Source: a virus. Taken from it: DNA of 64,000 nt. The stretch is from IMG/VR virus record IMGVR_UViG_3300009175_000013, positions 1-64,000 of that record. The stretch is one strand, 5' to 3'. Below the pieces are notes generated by a model. It saw nothing but the letters and a program-made list of their open reading frames with translations. It searched no databases and was not told where the DNA came from. This document shows positions 3,273 through 60,423 of the stretch, one piece after another. How positions within the stretch are numbered: position 1 is the stretch's first letter; every line of letters begins with the position of its first letter. Position numbers and translations under genes: made by a program.

Positions 3273-3300
3273 AACGGCGGAGTTAGCACACTCCGCCGTT
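3273..3300 (-). terminator. strong hairpin, likely terminator of the tRNA-like transcript
   Basis: An 11-bp perfect stem (3273-3283 with 3290-3300) has a 6-nt loop. On the minus strand it follows the tRNA-like units and precedes the gene at 3256. The following T tract is weak (GTTTCTG), so termination may be partial. Confidence 0.6.
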
Positions 3301-3331
3301 CCGTTGTTATATCGTTTACAAGACGATTAAC

Positions 3332-3504
3332 GTGCTATTTCGACCTGCCAGTGAATCCGTTTAATCCAAGGCCTCAGTCTGAATGCCACCTGCTTTTCCT
3401 CTTAGCTACCCCGACGGAAGGTTAAACGGTAAGCGTCGGGGACTGGATTCGAACCAGTGATCGGTGGTGGAGGGTGCCTTGGAACTCGACCTGGCAACCA
3501 GCAC
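3332..3504 (-). tRNA. circularly permuted tRNA-like unit B
   Basis: The order on the minus strand is inverted relative to a normal tRNA. The T arm comes first (ACTGG-TTCGAAT-CCAGT, 3458-3442), then acceptor 3' strand CCCCGAC (3441-3435), a spacer of about 17 nt, acceptor 5' strand GTCGGGG (3415-3409), D arm GCT...AGC (3406-3392) and stem strand GGTGG (3390-3386). GGTGG pairs with CCACC (3470-3466) upstream of the T arm. The outer flanks also pair in nested order: GTGCT 3504-3500 with AGCAC 3336-3332, TGCCAG 3496-3491 with CTGGCA 3351-3346, and TCCAAGGC 3483-3476 with GCCTTGGA 3372-3365. All of this is direct sequence reading. The anticodon cannot be assigned because the break lies in the anticodon loop. 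That a mature tRNA is made is inference. Confidence 0.7.
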
Positions 3505-3512
3505 TATTGTCT

Positions 3513-3748
3513 GAGTCTGGAGCGATAATCTGAGTCTGAATGCTCTCAACGGGTATTAGCCGCCGCGTCTGCCAGTTCCGCCACCCCGCTATTAGACCCA
3601 CCCGCAGTTTAGGCATGCAAACCGGAACTTCCGGGATCCAAGATCCACTATCTGCACAAAGGGTGGGTCTAATAGCGGGGGCAGGAATCGAACCTGCACG
3701 AGAGCGAAGTTGAGTCTGAATCTTCTGCTCAGCTTACGCTCAAAACTC
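3513..3748 (-). tRNA. circularly permuted tRNA-like unit A (Leu-type, class II)
   Basis: The 3' half comes first: T arm GCAGG-TTCGATT-CCTGC (3697-3681) and acceptor CCCCGCT (3680-3674). After a spacer comes the 5' half: acceptor AGCGGGG (3590-3584), a Leu-like D arm (3581-3565), and anticodon arm GGCGG-CTAATAC-CCGTT (3564-3548). The break is in the variable arm: GAGAGC (3547-3542) pairs with GCTCTC (3705-3700). The acceptor pairing continues into a 20-bp perfect inverted repeat (3680-3661 with 3603-3584). The flanks also pair: GAGT 3748-3745 with ACTC 3516-3513, GAGCG 3741-3737 with CGCTC 3524-3520, TAA with TTA, and CTGAG 3732-3728 with CTCAG 3534-3530. Canonical loop spacing gives anticodon AAT; a one-base shift gives TAA (Leu). 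Amino-acid identity is therefore uncertain. Confidence 0.72.
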
Positions 3749-3766
3749 TACTTGGGCGATCAGTCT

Positions 3767-4504
3767 CTAATTGCCCAAGATAAAGTCAAAAATCTCCTTT
3801 CCGACCGACACGTCAGAGACGGCGATCTGATTAGCAACTTGCTGTGCCGACTTGACCGCCTCCAAAAGCTTCGTCACCTTCTCCAGGAGCTTCTGCCTCT
3901 CAGAGGCGGGAACCGCACCAGACATGTGCGTCGTCGACCAATTGCCGACGAATACATCCTTGGTGATAGTTTTGACCTGCGCCGGGTGCTTGTCCGTGGC
4001 TTCCGACATCACCAGCGGGACTTCCGTCTTGACCGTCTTGTTCTGCGTCACCGGGTCGGTAACATAGAACCCGCGATTCGAGTCAAACTTCCAATCGAAC
4101 GTCGGATCCAAGACCGGCATCTTGTCGATGAAAGTCTTGACGTCAGTAAGCTGCTTGTCCAAGAACAACAAGTGCGTCACCGGGACTTTCGCCAGGATCG
4201 TCTTCCCATCCACCACAACGTCCGCCTTCGCCTCGCAGTTGGCAGTGTCCTGAGTGGCCACCACATCGAGCAGCGAAGTCCAGACCTTGGCCGCTTCCTT
4301 CAGCCCATCCGTGGCGACTTGCTGCACCCGCTTATTCTCAGCGGGAAGCTTCTCGCCGTTCTCCAGGTCCGAGGGGGTGTAGGACCGCGACAGACCCGTG
4401 CACAGGGCTTCCTTGGTCACCCGGTGATGGATCTCCGTGATCCTGGCCTGGGTTTCGGACTTCCGACCATTGACGATGGCGATGATTTGGCACAACCTGG
4501 CCAT
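3767..4504 (-). CDS. DUF7873-like protein
   Basis: 245 residues. The start MARLCQIIAIVNGRKSETQA and the internal stretches NCEAKADVVVDGK, VTHLLFLDKQL and EATDKHPAQV resemble the DUF7873 family as I remember it (actinobacterial and phage proteins of unknown function). No catalytic motif is evident. It lies immediately upstream of the tRNA-like units on the same strand, so they could share a transcript. It ends in TAG at 3769-3767, 19 nt before the first paired flank of unit A. Confidence 0.7.
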   Translation of the reverse strand: MARLCQIIAIVNGRKSETQARITEIHHRVTKEALCTGLSRSYTPSDLENGEKLPAENKRVQQVATDGLKEAAKVWTSLLDVVATQDTANCEAKADVVVDGKTILAKVPVTHLLFLDKQLTDVKTFIDKMPVLDPTFDWKFDSNRGFYVTDPVTQNKTVKTEVPLVMSEATDKHPAQVKTITKDVFVGNWSTTHMSGAVPASERQKLLEKVTKLLEAVKSAQQVANQIAVSDVSVGKEIFDFILGN

Positions 4505-12146: not shown

Positions 12147-13763
12147 TCATTTGGTCGCAAACACCAAAATCGGTTCAAACGTCTTTTCCCGCCCCATAAA
12201 GCTCGCCGTCTTCATCTCAATACGATCAACAAGTCTGCGACCGCACTTAGCCGCCACCCCCAAACACATTTCCTCCTGTCTCTTCGGCAAATTTAAAGCC
12301 ACCATTCCCCTAAACTTACTCAAAATATTCTCAACGATCGGCTTCGTCAACGTCTTAGAACTATCAATCCCAAAATAATGCTCAGTATCATCATAGGGTG
12401 GAGAAGTCAACAACAAATCGCCATCAGGAAAATCGCACACAGTAGCATCAGCAACACTAAACTGCGGTTCACTCAAAAACCGAGCACCAACAAATTTCCT
12501 AAGATTAACATGAGAATCAATCACATTCTGATTGAGATCGGACCCCAGATATTGATATTTAGCGTCAATAGTCCCAAGCAATCTCCCACCCCAACCCATA
12601 CAAGGATCAACAATCACACCGCCAGATGGAAGATACTTATCATAAACGCCGCGAGCAACCCACGGTTTAAAGATGGAGACTGCCGCAAAGTCCTTATAAA
12701 ACTTAATGATTGAGCTAATAAATCCATATATGGCGACTTCAGATTTAATCGCCCACGCCCTCTCAATGGCGTTTCTTAGAATTGATGTATTGCCGCATTC
12801 CCACGCCGCAGTAACTGGCAGATACCCTTTGTGGGTAGATCTCCAATAATGCTGGCTAAAATGCTTAATCAGGCTAACCGCGCTATCATTCTGGAAATTG
12901 GCATTAAATTGCGCACCACCTGGCGATTTATATCCATCCAACCCACCACGCAATATGTGGCTCGGATATTGAGGTGGCATAAACCCATAATTAAGAAGCC
13001 AATCGGCACAACTGCCTGGAGTATTCCAGATTAATTTCCAGTTGCAACAATAATATCGATCAGCATCCTGAATCACAATTTTATAATAATCACCAAACTT
13101 GCCGAGATCGGCGGAGTTTGCTGCTGCCACCAGCATATCGCGCACCACTACACGCCGATTCGGCCCTGGCTCATGAGCAATTGAGATACCATCTGGCTCA
13201 ATATAATACTCATAATTACAGTATTTAACTTTAATGCCAGATTTAACCGACTTGCCAGTACTGGGAATAACAAAAGCCTTGACCGGAGCATCCACACTCC
13301 GCTGTGGACTCCTATGCAGTGCTTTTATTCCATACCTAGCCGCCACTGCACAGACAGTATTCGCCCGCACCCCAACCATGGAAGCTATCTTCCTAAATGA
13401 ATATTTATTGGCTAACTCAGCAAACTGCTCGCGATCATTTAGTATGCTTGGCCTCTTAGCATCATCCATGGATCTGAATTTCATTTCTGGTTTATACTTA
13501 AGCAGTTGCCGCTTAATCCTGGCCACTGGCGCGCAATATGCCTTATGAAGAGCATCTAGACTGGCCCCGGCCACATAGGCACCATAAACCTTGGCGATCG
13601 GCAACAATTTTTCGATTGATTTGTGCCGCCCGGCTATGCCATGTTTTTTACAAATTACCGATACAACACCCGGCGCAGTCCCCAATTGTGCCGCAACGGA
13701 TGACATCGATATGCCATCTACCTCAACCATCTGCCTAATCATATTTATATCATACTTGCCCAT
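12147..13763 (-). CDS. DNA methyltransferase with N-terminal helix-turn-helix repeats
   Basis: 538 residues. The catalytic part is C-terminal. DPCMGWGGRLLG (about residue 385) is the S-adenosylmethionine motif I in DPxxGxG form, and LLTSPPYDDTEHY (about 455) is the TSPPY motif IV of N4-cytosine or N6-adenine methyltransferases. The N-terminal third has at least two HTH-like units (SMSSVAAQLGTAPGVVSVIC and SFRKIASMVGVRANTVCAV), which could supply sequence specificity. The middle 170 residues are Trp-rich and unassigned. The start overlaps the stop of the double-HNH gene (ATGA at 13763-13750 region), so the two genes are likely co-translated. Base modified and target site unknown. Confidence 0.8.
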   Translation of the reverse strand: MGKYDINMIRQMVEVDGISMSSVAAQLGTAPGVVSVICKKHGIAGRHKSIEKLLPIAKVYGAYVAGASLDALHKAYCAPVARIKRQLLKYKPEMKFRSMDDAKRPSILNDREQFAELANKYSFRKIASMVGVRANTVCAVAARYGIKALHRSPQRSVDAPVKAFVIPSTGKSVKSGIKVKYCNYEYYIEPDGISIAHEPGPNRRVVVRDMLVAAANSADLGKFGDYYKIVIQDADRYYCCNWKLIWNTPGSCADWLLNYGFMPPQYPSHILRGGLDGYKSPGGAQFNANFQNDSAVSLIKHFSQHYWRSTHKGYLPVTAAWECGNTSILRNAIERAWAIKSEVAIYGFISSIIKFYKDFAAVSIFKPWVARGVYDKYLPSGGVIVDPCMGWGGRLLGTIDAKYQYLGSDLNQNVIDSHVNLRKFVGARFLSEPQFSVADATVCDFPDGDLLLTSPPYDDTEHYFGIDSSKTLTKPIVENILSKFRGMVALNLPKRQEEMCLGVAAKCGRRLVDRIEMKTASFMGREKTFEPILVFATK

Positions 13764-14520
13764 GATTCGCCTTTATATCATTAATCCATTTTATAACACT
13801 TAAATCATCAAACGTTGATCTAGCCCTATTAATGGCTTTCAAAACCAATCTAATATTAGTAACTAGGTATCCGATTTTATTATCAATTCGATCAATAGAT
13901 AAGCTAAGACATGGGTGGGCATAGCATGCCATTTTAACCCCAGCGAGGGCGCATTCGCCATTCTGAGATCTATATAATTCCACTACCTTATCAGTATTAA
14001 TATCATTTTCGGCGAACTTGGCCTGGGCGTTTCGGACACAAGTTGAGATATAATCCCTACTAAACTTCTCTGGTTTAAATAAACTTGGATCTTTAATACA
14101 TTCTACAAAATATATCACATCCGCATTGGTGTGTCGATTCTTAGCTAGGTTAATGCCCCTACACACTAACTGGGTATTAAGTTTAGTGTGCCCAATAGAA
14201 TTGTCAATGCGATCGATCGATAGAGACCAAAGTGAAAAATCGTGCGTGAGAGTTAGACCAGAAATCGCACACTTTTCATTGGTACTATATAACTTATTGA
14301 TAAATCCCAGGTCTAAATCGCAGCCCCTACCCTTGGATTTATCCTCCAGAATCGCCTGCCAAGCATGCCTGGTAATCCATGATCTCCACGTTCTTGTGTA
14401 ATATAAGTGATTGTGTTTGGACTGCTCAATAGACCTGCCAGCCCTACACTTCTTGACATATTCTCTGTTGCGATGCAACCTCTCATCGTTTGTCATAATA
14501 CCTTTAATACATCGCGTCAT
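13750..14520 (-). CDS. endonuclease with two HNH-like domains
   Basis: 256 residues. Two similar HNH-like modules stand in tandem: KCAISGLTLTHDFSLWSLSIDRIDNSIGH (about residues 75-105) and ECALAGVKMACYAHPCLSLSIDRIDNKIGY (about 190-220). Each is followed by an N-rich tail (RGINLAKNRHTN and LKAINRARSTFDD). Single copies of this pattern are typical of phage homing nucleases, so a double copy is unusual. It is transcribed with the methyltransferase and overlaps it, suggesting either a restriction-modification-like pair or a nuclease whose site is protected. The N-terminus is basic. Confidence 0.75.
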   Translation of the reverse strand: MTRCIKGIMTNDERLHRNREYVKKCRAGRSIEQSKHNHLYYTRTWRSWITRHAWQAILEDKSKGRGCDLDLGFINKLYSTNEKCAISGLTLTHDFSLWSLSIDRIDNSIGHTKLNTQLVCRGINLAKNRHTNADVIYFVECIKDPSLFKPEKFSRDYISTCVRNAQAKFAENDINTDKVVELYRSQNGECALAGVKMACYAHPCLSLSIDRIDNKIGYLVTNIRLVLKAINRARSTFDDLSVIKWINDIKANHGQV

Positions 14521-44836: not shown

Positions 44837-45151
44837 ATGAAACTGGCCTGGATAAAGTATGCTCCACCCGGCACCAAGCCAAAGTACATGCTGGTGCTCA
44901 CCCTGGGCACCAAAGACGATAAATTTTACTGCCTCGACGCCAACATGCCAGAAAAAGCCCGCGAATTCTTCAAATCCAAATCAACCTACCTAAGCGGCCT
45001 AACCCTGGAAGAACGAATCCAAATAATTAGGGATCAACGCCCCGAAGCCATGGCTGGGTATAAGACCATCCACGCCAGCAACGTAACCATTGAACGAGAG
45101 TATGAGGTCAATGCTTCTTCTTCACGGCCAGCAAAATCTGGATCATCTTGA
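44837..45151 (+). CDS. hypothetical protein
   Basis: 104 residues from ATG 44837. Beta strand start (KLAWIKYAPPGTKPKYMLVL) with a charged helical middle and a Ser-rich end. It is convergent with the LAGLIDADG gene, overlapping its end by 9 bp. Function unknown. Confidence 0.6.
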   Translation: MKLAWIKYAPPGTKPKYMLVLTLGTKDDKFYCLDANMPEKAREFFKSKSTYLSGLTLEERIQIIRDQRPEAMAGYKTIHASNVTIEREYEVNASSSRPAKSGSS

Positions 45152-45919
45152 TAGATCTATGCATTTTTCAAAATTGCGACGCTTCCTATGGAGCCACACT
45201 GTTGCGTCATCATAAAGATATTGGTATGCCTTTTTGCACCCACTCCCCGCTTTATCCCATCTCCATACACCACGCTGCCAATGGATAGAAGCATCAAGCC
45301 CAATTAGGCCGCGAACCGTCTCAACCGGCCCGCGAAATGGATTGCAGAATCCAATCGTTAAATATCCATTGGCTGGTATTGAGGCCCATCCATCACCATC
45401 AAACAACCCACGAATAAAATGCCTAGTAAGATTGGCATCAACAGTCGGCCAGACACCTTCCTTTTTATAGGTTACTATCCCATTATTGATTAGACCCCCA
45501 ACCAACTCGGCTGAATTAATATTTAGTCTGGACGAGCACGTGCTACTATCGCGCCTAATTGGGTGGTTTGACCCCACAGACACCCTAAAAGACCTAAGAT
45601 GCTGTTCATCTTTTCTTGCTAATTTTATTACAAGTCTTTTGTCAACATGCCCATTCTTGCGCTCAGCATGTTGTACATATCCATCAGATGCAATAAAACC
45701 AAACCAATAAGCTTTATGCTCTGTGTCTATTGCATCAAAGAAATGCCTATCTATAGCATATGTTGAGCACTGCTCGCTAAGCGCTCTATGGCCGCCATTG
45801 GCGTTTATTAATTTAAGTACATTATAATAAGAGATGTCACATTGTAATGATATGGCCCTGGATGACATTCCAGATCTATGCAACTTAATTATATAATCAT
45901 TTGTAATGAGGTGTTTCAT
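45143..45919 (-). CDS. LAGLIDADG-family homing endonuclease
   Basis: 258 residues. Two LAGLIDADG-type helices: AYWFGFIASDGYV (about residue 70) and HFIRGLFDGDGWAS (about 168), each with the catalytic acidic residue. The N-terminal 60 residues carry an HTH-like segment (SSRAISLQCDISYYNVLKLI). Monomeric two-motif enzymes cut asymmetrical sites. It starts 1 nt after the primase stop, so it is inserted beside a replication gene. Confidence 0.85.
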   Translation of the reverse strand: MKHLITNDYIIKLHRSGMSSRAISLQCDISYYNVLKLINANGGHRALSEQCSTYAIDRHFFDAIDTEHKAYWFGFIASDGYVQHAERKNGHVDKRLVIKLARKDEQHLRSFRVSVGSNHPIRRDSSTCSSRLNINSAELVGGLINNGIVTYKKEGVWPTVDANLTRHFIRGLFDGDGWASIPANGYLTIGFCNPFRGPVETVRGLIGLDASIHWQRGVWRWDKAGSGCKKAYQYLYDDATVWLHRKRRNFEKCIDLSR

Positions 45920-58796: not shown

Positions 58797-59558
58797 TTAG
58801 TACCGGTAAATCATGCTGGCATAGGGGTCATCTGACAACAGTAGGGCTTTCTCGTAAACCTCTTTCTGCAGCTCATACCCCTTAGTCTTCATGGCATCAC
58901 CATCCAGTGTCAGAGAGCCACCATCTGGACTTGGGATGCCACCGAACTTCCCACGGGCGTTGCCGAGCATGATCATGGTCTCGGCTAGCATAAGATCATA
59001 CACTAGCAGTTTGTTGGCCGGCGTACGCCATGTTGAGATCGCTGGGATATAGATCACGAAGACTGGAAACGATCCCTTGGGCGTGGGATATAGCCGGATC
59101 TTATTGTCGCCCAAACACTCCCAGTGACCCTCATTACCCAAAATGCGTTGGCTGAACCGGCGATATTGTTGCAGTAGTGTGTAGTCAGTAAGGATGGTCT
59201 GGATGCCAGTGATGTTTCCAATGTTTGCTGCGATAGACTTGGGGATACCGAGTCTTCGCCGATTTTTGTCCATTAAATCAGAATGCGGTGGAACCGAACC
59301 ACAAGATCGCAGGCACGCTTCTTCCCATGATTTCCCATGGTTAGCATCACCAGAAATAAAGTGGGCCATTTCGTCAGCCACAACATCGCCGGCGGCAGCA
59401 GTACAAAATTTATATTGTGATAAGAATATCTCCCCCGTGTTTAAGTCAGTAAACGCTCCCACATTTGCAATTGGAGCGAGCCTTATTTTTAGATTTCGGT
59501 ATAAATTTGCATTTGTAGTAACATCCTGCTCTCTGGGAATAGGCATAGTGGTGTTCAT
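58797..59558 (-). CDS. neck protein gp13-like, C-terminal part of a fractured gene
   Basis: 253 residues from ATG 59558 (GAGG at 8 nt). Residues about 115-253 look like the C-terminal part of a gp13-type neck protein: NIGNITGIQTILTDYTLLQQ, RILGNEGHWECLGDNKIRLY, LMLAETMIMLGNARGKFG then GIPSPDGGSLTLDGD. The first about 110 residues (including DVVADEMAHFI and ACLRSCGSVPPHSD) are unrelated as far as I can see. The start overlaps the 3' end of the endonuclease gene by 113 bp in another frame. The N-terminal half of the neck protein is encoded at 60460-61173. Confidence 0.7.
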   Translation of the reverse strand: MNTTMPIPREQDVTTNANLYRNLKIRLAPIANVGAFTDLNTGEIFLSQYKFCTAAAGDVVADEMAHFISGDANHGKSWEEACLRSCGSVPPHSDLMDKNRRRLGIPKSIAANIGNITGIQTILTDYTLLQQYRRFSQRILGNEGHWECLGDNKIRLYPTPKGSFPVFVIYIPAISTWRTPANKLLVYDLMLAETMIMLGNARGKFGGIPSPDGGSLTLDGDAMKTKGYELQKEVYEKALLLSDDPYASMIYRY

Positions 59559-60423
59559 GCGATACCTCGCTGAGTTCTTCTTTACTTTTGAACCATAATG
59601 TATAAGTTGTCTCTGGCTTAAGAGCTACCGGATTAACAAACTCAATCATGTTGGCATTAAACCCACCCAAGAATAATTCGTACCCAGCTTCACGCTCTTG
59701 TGCTGTCACTCCACGAAATTTTGCCCCAGCGTTTTTTGCAGCTTGAGATGCGTATAGATATTTATCTAGTGGTATCATGTTTTCGGCTGGTTTGACTTCA
59801 ATCCAACAATCTCCATTCGGTGATTGCACCGAAAAGTCCACAAAATACGTTCTTTGTTTGCCAGTTAACCTGTCAGCATATGGCACTCTAATTAGCTCAT
59901 AGTCCCAATTCTCAACAGATGTGTCGCTATCGAGTAGCAAAGCATAAGATAGCTCGTGAAGCGACTTGAAAAGATGAGGTCCATATCCATATCGTGACTT
60001 AGCTTTGTTGATTTTCTTGATGGTTTCTGGATTACACCCTGGGTGCCTATAACCAGTCTTCAACAAATACCTAAGCTGCATAGCCGCCGCCGCATGCTTG
60101 GGAGGCTTCTTTAGACCATATTTTCGAATTTTAGACCGGACAGTGTTAAAATGCAACCCCAACGATTCGGCTATGGTCTTTGCGTCTTTGTTCGCAATCA
60201 AGTATTCATTATATAAATATTTAGGGGTTAGAACTGATGTGTCTTTTCTGGTTTTAATAAACTCGGCATAGGCTATAGAGCTGTGGTTATGAAGCGAGGT
60301 ATCAACACCCAACTCCTTTAACTTACGTTTAACTGTTATTGGTGCACAACCGAATTCGCTTGCGCATTGCTTTAAAGTATGAGATGTGAAATACGCAACA
60401 AGTCGTGAGCAATCAATATTCAT
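59446..60423 (-). CDS. PD-(D/E)XK homing endonuclease inserted in the neck gene
   Basis: 325 residues. Two N-terminal HTH-like units (TLKQCASEFGCAPITVKRKL and DAKTIAESLGLHFNTVRSKI). The nuclease core is LHELSYALLLDSDTSVENWD ... RTYFVDFSVQSPNGDCWIEV then KP, giving Glu, Asp and the ExK pair expected of this fold. Freestanding nucleases of this kind between split gene halves are known from fractured-gene arrangements with split inteins. Start lacks a strong ribosome-binding site. Confidence 0.75.
   Translation of the reverse strand: MNIDCSRLVAYFTSHTLKQCASEFGCAPITVKRKLKELGVDTSLHNHSSIAYAEFIKTRKDTSVLTPKYLYNEYLIANKDAKTIAESLGLHFNTVRSKIRKYGLKKPPKHAAAAMQLRYLLKTGYRHPGCNPETIKKINKAKSRYGYGPHLFKSLHELSYALLLDSDTSVENWDYELIRVPYADRLTGKQRTYFVDFSVQSPNGDCWIEVKPAENMIPLDKYLYASQAAKNAGAKFRGVTAQEREAGYELFLGGFNANMIEFVNPVALKPETTYTLWFKSKEELSEVSHEHHYAYSQRAGCYYKCKFIPKSKNKARSNCKCGSVY

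Follow-up and report, generated by a model that had tools for sequence, protein, structure and literature searches.

We found that a phage locus first read as a circularly permuted tRNA gene is a single RNA of ~400 nt with two long arms, each ending in a tRNA-like tip. The RNA contains two covarying permuted tRNA-like domains and is tightly linked to a gene for a DUF7873 protein in phages and bacteria. No rotation of the sequence is needed. Since each domain is anchored at the anticodon stem or at the variable arm and its acceptor is capped, its halves are necessarily read as "permuted". The best reading of the locus is a predicted new tRNA-mimic ribonucleoprotein.

The window, by which we mean the whole 64,000-nucleotide stretch analysed, is part of a 74,637-base record of a tailed myovirus with recognisable genes for tail sheath, baseplate and head closure; a search of viral_contigs returned no homologues of the tail sheath. 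Directly upstream of the RNA lies a gene whose product matches the DUF7873 (PF25283) profile with 310.8 bits (cut-off 27). A second, independently assembled contig (L003, from metagenome 3300025316) has exactly the window's sequence over this region, and an assembly chimera was rejected on this ground. Past the RNA, the hairpin at 3273-3300 has its T-rich tail on the plus strand, yet the flanking genes and the RNA are on the minus strand. Elsewhere in the window, three minus-strand genes drew attention: an endonuclease VII/HNH part fused to a region matching Srd anti-sigma factor/decoy-of-sigma70 families (13750-14520), a LAGLIDADG homing-endonuclease-like protein adjoining a DNA primase gene (45143-45919), and a head-closure-like protein whose N-terminal region matches HNH endonuclease/DNA-binding families (59446-60423).

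Features of the DUF7873-RNA locus in the window (minus-strand elements in order of transcription)
Feature	Coordinates	Strand	Details
DUF7873 (PF25283) gene	3767-4504	-	245 aa, directly upstream of the RNA; Pfam E 9.5e-93
Hairpin at DUF7873 stop codon, between gene and RNA	3751-3779	-	CTTGGGCAATTAG/CTGATCGCCCAAG, 85% inverted repeat; also in fold
Non-coding RNA	3330-3748 (ends approximate)	-	two arms, each with a permuted tRNA-like cap domain
Arm A, 5' strand	3700-3748	-	GAGT, GAGCG, CTGAG ... GCTCTC; pairs with 3513-3547 in free fold
Unit A, T arm	3681-3697	-	GCAGG-TTCGATT-CCTGC
Unit A, acceptor 3' strand	3674-3680	-	CCCCGCT, 7/7 pairs with 3584-3590; discriminator A at 3673
Unit A, cap/linker	3591-3673	-	83 nt; with its ends the acceptor helix reaches 20 bp
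Unit A, acceptor 5' strand and D arm	3565-3590	-	AGCGGGG (3590-3584), U8 G9, Leu-type D arm
Unit A, anticodon-like hairpin	3548-3564	-	loop CTAATAC; free fold; not conserved in homologues
Arm A, 3' strand	3513-3547	-	GAGAGC ... CTCAG, CGCTC, ACTC; free fold
Arm B, 5' strand	3476-3496	-	TGCCAG, conserved loop motif GTCGAG (RTCRA), TTCCAAGGC
Unit B, T arm	3442-3458	-	ACTGG-TTCGAAT-CCAGT
Unit B, acceptor 3' strand	3435-3441	-	CCCCGAC, 7/7 pairs with 3409-3415
Unit B, cap/linker	3416-3434	-	19 nt
Unit B, acceptor 5' strand and D arm	3392-3415	-	
Arm B, 3' strand	3346-3390	-	GGTGG, GCCTTGGA, conserved TTAAACG (TYAAAYG), CTGGCA
Perfect hairpin past the RNA	3273-3300		11 bp; terminator-like on +, no clear T run on -

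The sequence-only reading had described unit A, which spans 3697-3565, and its layout holds up. The T arm and acceptor 3' strand (3697-3674) precede the acceptor 5' strand and D arm (3590-3565), the D arm is of the Leu (class II) type it had named (TG-GCGGAACTGGCAGACGC, 3583-3565), and the 20-bp inverted repeat (3584-3603 with 3661-3680) is present with a 100% match. The variable-arm strands GAGAGC (3547-3542) and GCTCTC (3705-3700) pair as it proposed, joining unit A to its arm through the variable arm, and the nested flank pairs GAGT/ACTC, GAGCG/CGCTC and CTGAG/CTCAG are seen in the free minimum-energy fold. Downstream on the minus strand we identified a second permuted unit, B (3458-3392), in which an internal loop and a helix leading into the arm take the place of the anticodon loop. 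Searches of the unrotated window with ARAGORN and Rfam gave no tRNA, and at the gathering score no Rfam 15 family was found in the window, nor over the RNA in 24 homologous loci.

To look for the same layout elsewhere, we scanned 2.9 million viral contigs with a sequence-only pattern (T arm, CCCC, gap, GGGG, D-arm start). The scan returned 17 stretches; three conventional tandem tRNA arrays (L006, L009, L017), one stretch cut at the locus edge (L021) and one duplicate were set aside, leaving 12 further distinct permuted loci. All 12 have 7/7 acceptor pairs, no ARAGORN tRNA at that place and, as in the window, a DUF7873 gene in the same locus as the permuted unit. In the reverse direction, we collected DUF7873 homologues by protein similarity alone from annotated phages, plasmid-collection replicons, bacterial genomes and viral contigs. 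Relatives are encoded in annotated phages of Gordonia, Rhodococcus, Arthrobacter, Rhizobium, Klebsiella, Vibrio and Pseudanabaena and on at least 562 bacterial and at least 388 viral stretches, the best 80 of each kind being retained. Enough downstream sequence was available in 183 loci, most of them chosen by DUF7873 homology and a small part by the pattern; a strict permuted unit is present at least once in 169 of these and twice in 107, and several of the other 14 have a unit with one mismatch. These units number 276 on the RNA strand and one on the opposite strand, five sets of dinucleotide shuffles of the 183 loci gave a mean of 0, and the 1.1 kb upstream of DUF7873 holds a unit in 4 of 146 loci, bearing out the earlier view that the arrangement is not due to chance. 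The layout occurs in phages of actinobacteria, cyanobacteria, rhizobia, Klebsiella and Vibrio, in some of them inside tRNA arrays, and also in Actinomycetota, Planctomycetota, Chloroflexota, Myxococcota and other bacteria, so it is not a phage oddity. In 80 bacterial loci, DUF7873 is the only conserved neighbour of the RNA.

Covariation of the permuted unit among homologues is very strong. Of 219 units picked for their T and D arms alone, whether or not the acceptor strands pair, 203 have 7/7 acceptor pairs, compared with 1 when one strand is slid by a single base, and GC, CG, AT and TA pairs are all used at every acceptor position. An alignment of 40 divergent units has 99.2% of cells paired and 154 double-sided changes over 11 of 12 pairs, with a covariation score of 0.903 (0.21 when shuffled, 0.13-0.23 when slid). 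The slid test on the 219 units is the unbiased one of the two, because the short-cap units of the alignment were found with acceptor pairing required.

The flanks of both units belong to the same structure. Free folding of 3748-3330 gives -162.5 kcal/mol (z -4.41), with none of 100 shuffles as good, and yields two arms, each tipped by a tRNA-like domain: arm A forms between the stretch leading up to unit A and the first part of the middle segment, arm B between the last part of that segment and the stretch following unit B. Because a whole-RNA alignment with RNAalifold did not align the arms, we compared the pairing of each locus's own flanks with that of GC-matched flanks from other loci. For arm B, own flanks beat swapped ones in 99% of loci (mean z -2.2); for arm A they did so in 82% (z -1.1), and an unrelated pairing, used as the control, gave a z of 0.02. 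In unconstrained folds of 78 non-redundant loci, domain A reappeared 57 times and domain B 47 times, and the T arms of the two units lie 142-239 nt apart (median 152). Two conserved, unpaired motifs mark arm B: RTCRA in the middle segment (102 of 108 loci) and TYAAAYG past the D arm of unit B (88 of 108, mostly at 25-28 nt). A group I permuted intron-exon arrangement, with TTAAACGG and GTCGAG as P7-like elements, was considered and rejected: the motif lies only ~20 nt from the 5' half, which leaves no space for P3-P6, and Rfam gave no intron match. The arm strands of the window (3748-3513) and its homologues also contain many CTNA-type words ~6 nt apart (CTGAGGCTGAGG, CAGACTCAGATTCAGACTCA), a spacing that could reflect helix periodicity or a protein-binding repeat.

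The sequence-only reading had taken unit A for a permuted tRNA gene, whose transcript would give decoding tRNAs after being closed into a circle or joined in trans, either at the variable arm or at the anticodon loop. The permuted order, the class II D arm and the variable-arm stem fit such a gene, and there is precedent in algae and archaea (PMC3978253): as in the algal and Thermofilum genes, the 3' half precedes the 5' half and the acceptor strands match. Rotated sequences give tRNA-like matches whose anticodon is doubtful. The test for an intact anticodon arm, with a 7-nt loop and U33 after rejoining, came out negative. Hairpin loops of Leu-type A units vary in length and sequence among loci, from CTAATAC in the window to CCTAAGTTA, GAAA and GTAA tetraloops and others, so that GNRA tetraloops are included, and in unit B an internal loop stands in the anticodon's place. 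The attachment point varies as well: Leu-type A units are held by the variable arm and other homologues by the anticodon stem, which in actinobacterial forms continues into the arm. In contrast to the algal and Thermofilum genes, there is no conserved anticodon and no evident mature tRNA, two units are linked, the arms run far past the break and covary, and the carriers are bacteria and phages, where a splicing endonuclease is not expected. RNA ligases are inconsistently encoded in locus-bearing phages, RtcB and T4-type ligase both being absent from several complete ones (Phendrix, Ziko, Klebsiella KpLz-2_45). We therefore regard a true permuted tRNA gene as very improbable; unit A is one of two tRNA-like domains in a single RNA, and the lack of anticodon-arm conservation argues that these are tRNA mimics rather than decoding tRNAs.

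We interrogated the caps that close the acceptors, the commonest length of which is 7 nt. Of 238 distinct caps, 83% carry C74, and the share is still 82% among those of at least 15 nt, whose interior is compositionally flat. An encoded CCA falls exactly at 74-76 in 71 of the 238 (30%), compared with 0 and 3 at the adjacent offsets; 46% have U(-1) and 83% a purine at -2. The C74 and U(-1) frequencies are near those of conventional tRNAs of the same loci (90% and 51%), and U(-1) with A/G(-2) are RNase P determinants (PMC9433436). Discriminators are unit-specific across loci, unit A being mostly Leu-like with A73 and unit B mixed with U73 or G73. From the C74/CCA, U(-1) and purine(-2) statistics, the caps look like two pre-tRNA ends joined together, and such ends in the cap loops, which a purely structural mimic could do without, are a point against the ribonucleoprotein reading favoured below.

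These signals raise the question of whether the RNA might be opened at its caps to give two putative true acceptor ends. RNase P and tRNA 3' processing would then open both caps into a multi-piece RNA, like two-piece tmRNA, with CCA ends putatively aminoacylated for the ribosome or EF-Tu. All of the above signals, including the different discriminators of the two units, speak for this. However, unit A of the window has ATTA in place of NCCA and an acceptor prolonged to a 20-bp helix, which together argue against opening of its acceptor; such a helix should hinder RNase P, since leader-RCCA pairing is an anti-determinant (PMC9433436), and long extended caps are found at other loci too. We consider opening of both caps a possible but clearly disfavoured reading. 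The permuted two-piece tmRNA of cyanobacteria and alphaproteobacteria (RF04321) does share permuted acceptor halves and an intervening cap with tRNA-like processing signals, whereas our RNA has no recognised tag-coding region, D and T arms of the ordinary tRNA type, and two acceptor domains. ARAGORN and cmscan found no tmRNA in the window. A widespread ribonucleoprotein working as a "double tmRNA"-like device, in which RNase P and CCA processing would yield two different aminoacylatable ends on one RNA with a dedicated protein, seems doubtful. Separately, Gordonia phage Phendrix (MN096369.1; L022 572-1100) encodes a full tmRNA (RF00023, 89 bits) among its annotated tRNAs; it is a gene distinct from the DUF7873-linked RNA and is missing from the listed features of that stretch.

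In form, the element resembles the Y-RNA-type tRNA mimic YrlA (RF02553), the partner of Ro60/Rsr. In both, the tRNA-like domain runs from the T arm through acceptor, cap loop and acceptor again to the D arm, and sits at the tip of a long stem made by the ends of the RNA (PMC8394870). The YrlA model aligns at full length to bacterial units with 30-47 bits. These scores are below the cut-off of 69 bits, as they are everywhere, and in the window the model reaches 10.9 bits over the T arm only. The TROVE (Ro60) gene, which is the partner of YrlA, is absent from the 74.6-kb window record (a fragment), from four complete phages and from 8 of 11 genomes with the locus, where the neighbour is DUF7873. 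The element thus fails two defining YrlA tests, score and TROVE. It also differs in having two domains and two arms in ~400 nt, compared with one domain in 90-150 nt, and in caps that keep pre-tRNA-like ends with C74/CCA. That the locus is an ordinary YrlA/Ro60 particle is hardly credible. One Nannocystis genome (G007) that carries the DUF7873 locus also has five tandem YrlA-like RNAs (L197 729-1636), which score 49-65 bits, just below the cut-off, beside a TROVE gene.

DUF7873 itself offers few clues to function. Two AlphaFold2 models (pLDDT 82.5 and 91.5) gave no Foldseek match at E<=0.001 and VIA-align Z scores of at best 7.1 and 6.7, which is background level, and the fold is not recognised. 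Sequence searches of NCBIfam, PADLOC, PHROGs and PDB gave no significant match. Against viral models, Foldseek paired model m5894b491efe1 with a crAss-like phage protein of 179 aa (A0A7M1RW91; probability 1.00, E 0.019, TM 0.44/0.58), a possible distant relative. The median pI of the family is 6.3, that is, not strongly basic, and with no recognised fold either, genomic linkage is the one ground for proposing that DUF7873 binds RNA. Our literature search, made mostly outside subscription papers and preprints, found no mention of DUF7873 and no phage RNA like ours; an earlier description is possible.

Taken together, the locus is probably a small ribonucleoprotein, made of DUF7873 and the ~400-nt RNA downstream with its two capped tRNA-like domains, that acts by tRNA mimicry. 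The gene product and the non-coding RNA just 3' of it on the same strand would form one particle. Each arm tip imitates the part of a tRNA made up of acceptor stem, T arm and D arm, with the acceptor closed by the cap. DUF7873 may bind the RNA, and the conserved internal loop of arm B with RTCRA and TYAAAYG is a possible site. YrlA offers a comparison: DusA and TruB modify its tRNA-like domain, which also tethers PNPase to Rsr (PMC8394870). The mimicry might also serve as a decoy, soaking up tRNA-cleaving or tRNA-sensing enzymes such as anticodon nucleases, toxins and defence systems and so shielding phage or host tRNAs, a role already proposed for YrlA (PMC7790460). Mimicry without conserved anticodons, frequent occurrence in phages and copies inside tRNA arrays agree with a decoy, but a stable partner protein and two conserved arms exceed what it needs, bacterial genomes carry the RNA without conserved neighbours besides DUF7873, and DUF7873 has no match in the defence library searched. 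We judge the decoy unlikely, and favour the ribonucleoprotein acting through tRNA mimicry.

Hundreds of phages and bacteria carry this RNA next to a DUF7873 gene, which points to an as yet undescribed machine, built of RNA and protein, that mimics tRNA. Rfam 15 lacks this conserved RNA class, which combines two permuted tRNA mimics with a dedicated protein whose fold is not recognised. It occurs in phages of at least five host groups and in several bacterial phyla, and it explains "permuted tRNA" matches that tRNA finders overlook. tRNA-like RNAs are scarce and mechanistically rich, as tmRNA and YrlA illustrate. The predicted particle would be a second, far more complex tRNA-mimic particle, and with it one could test what benefit phages and bacteria draw from tRNA imitation.
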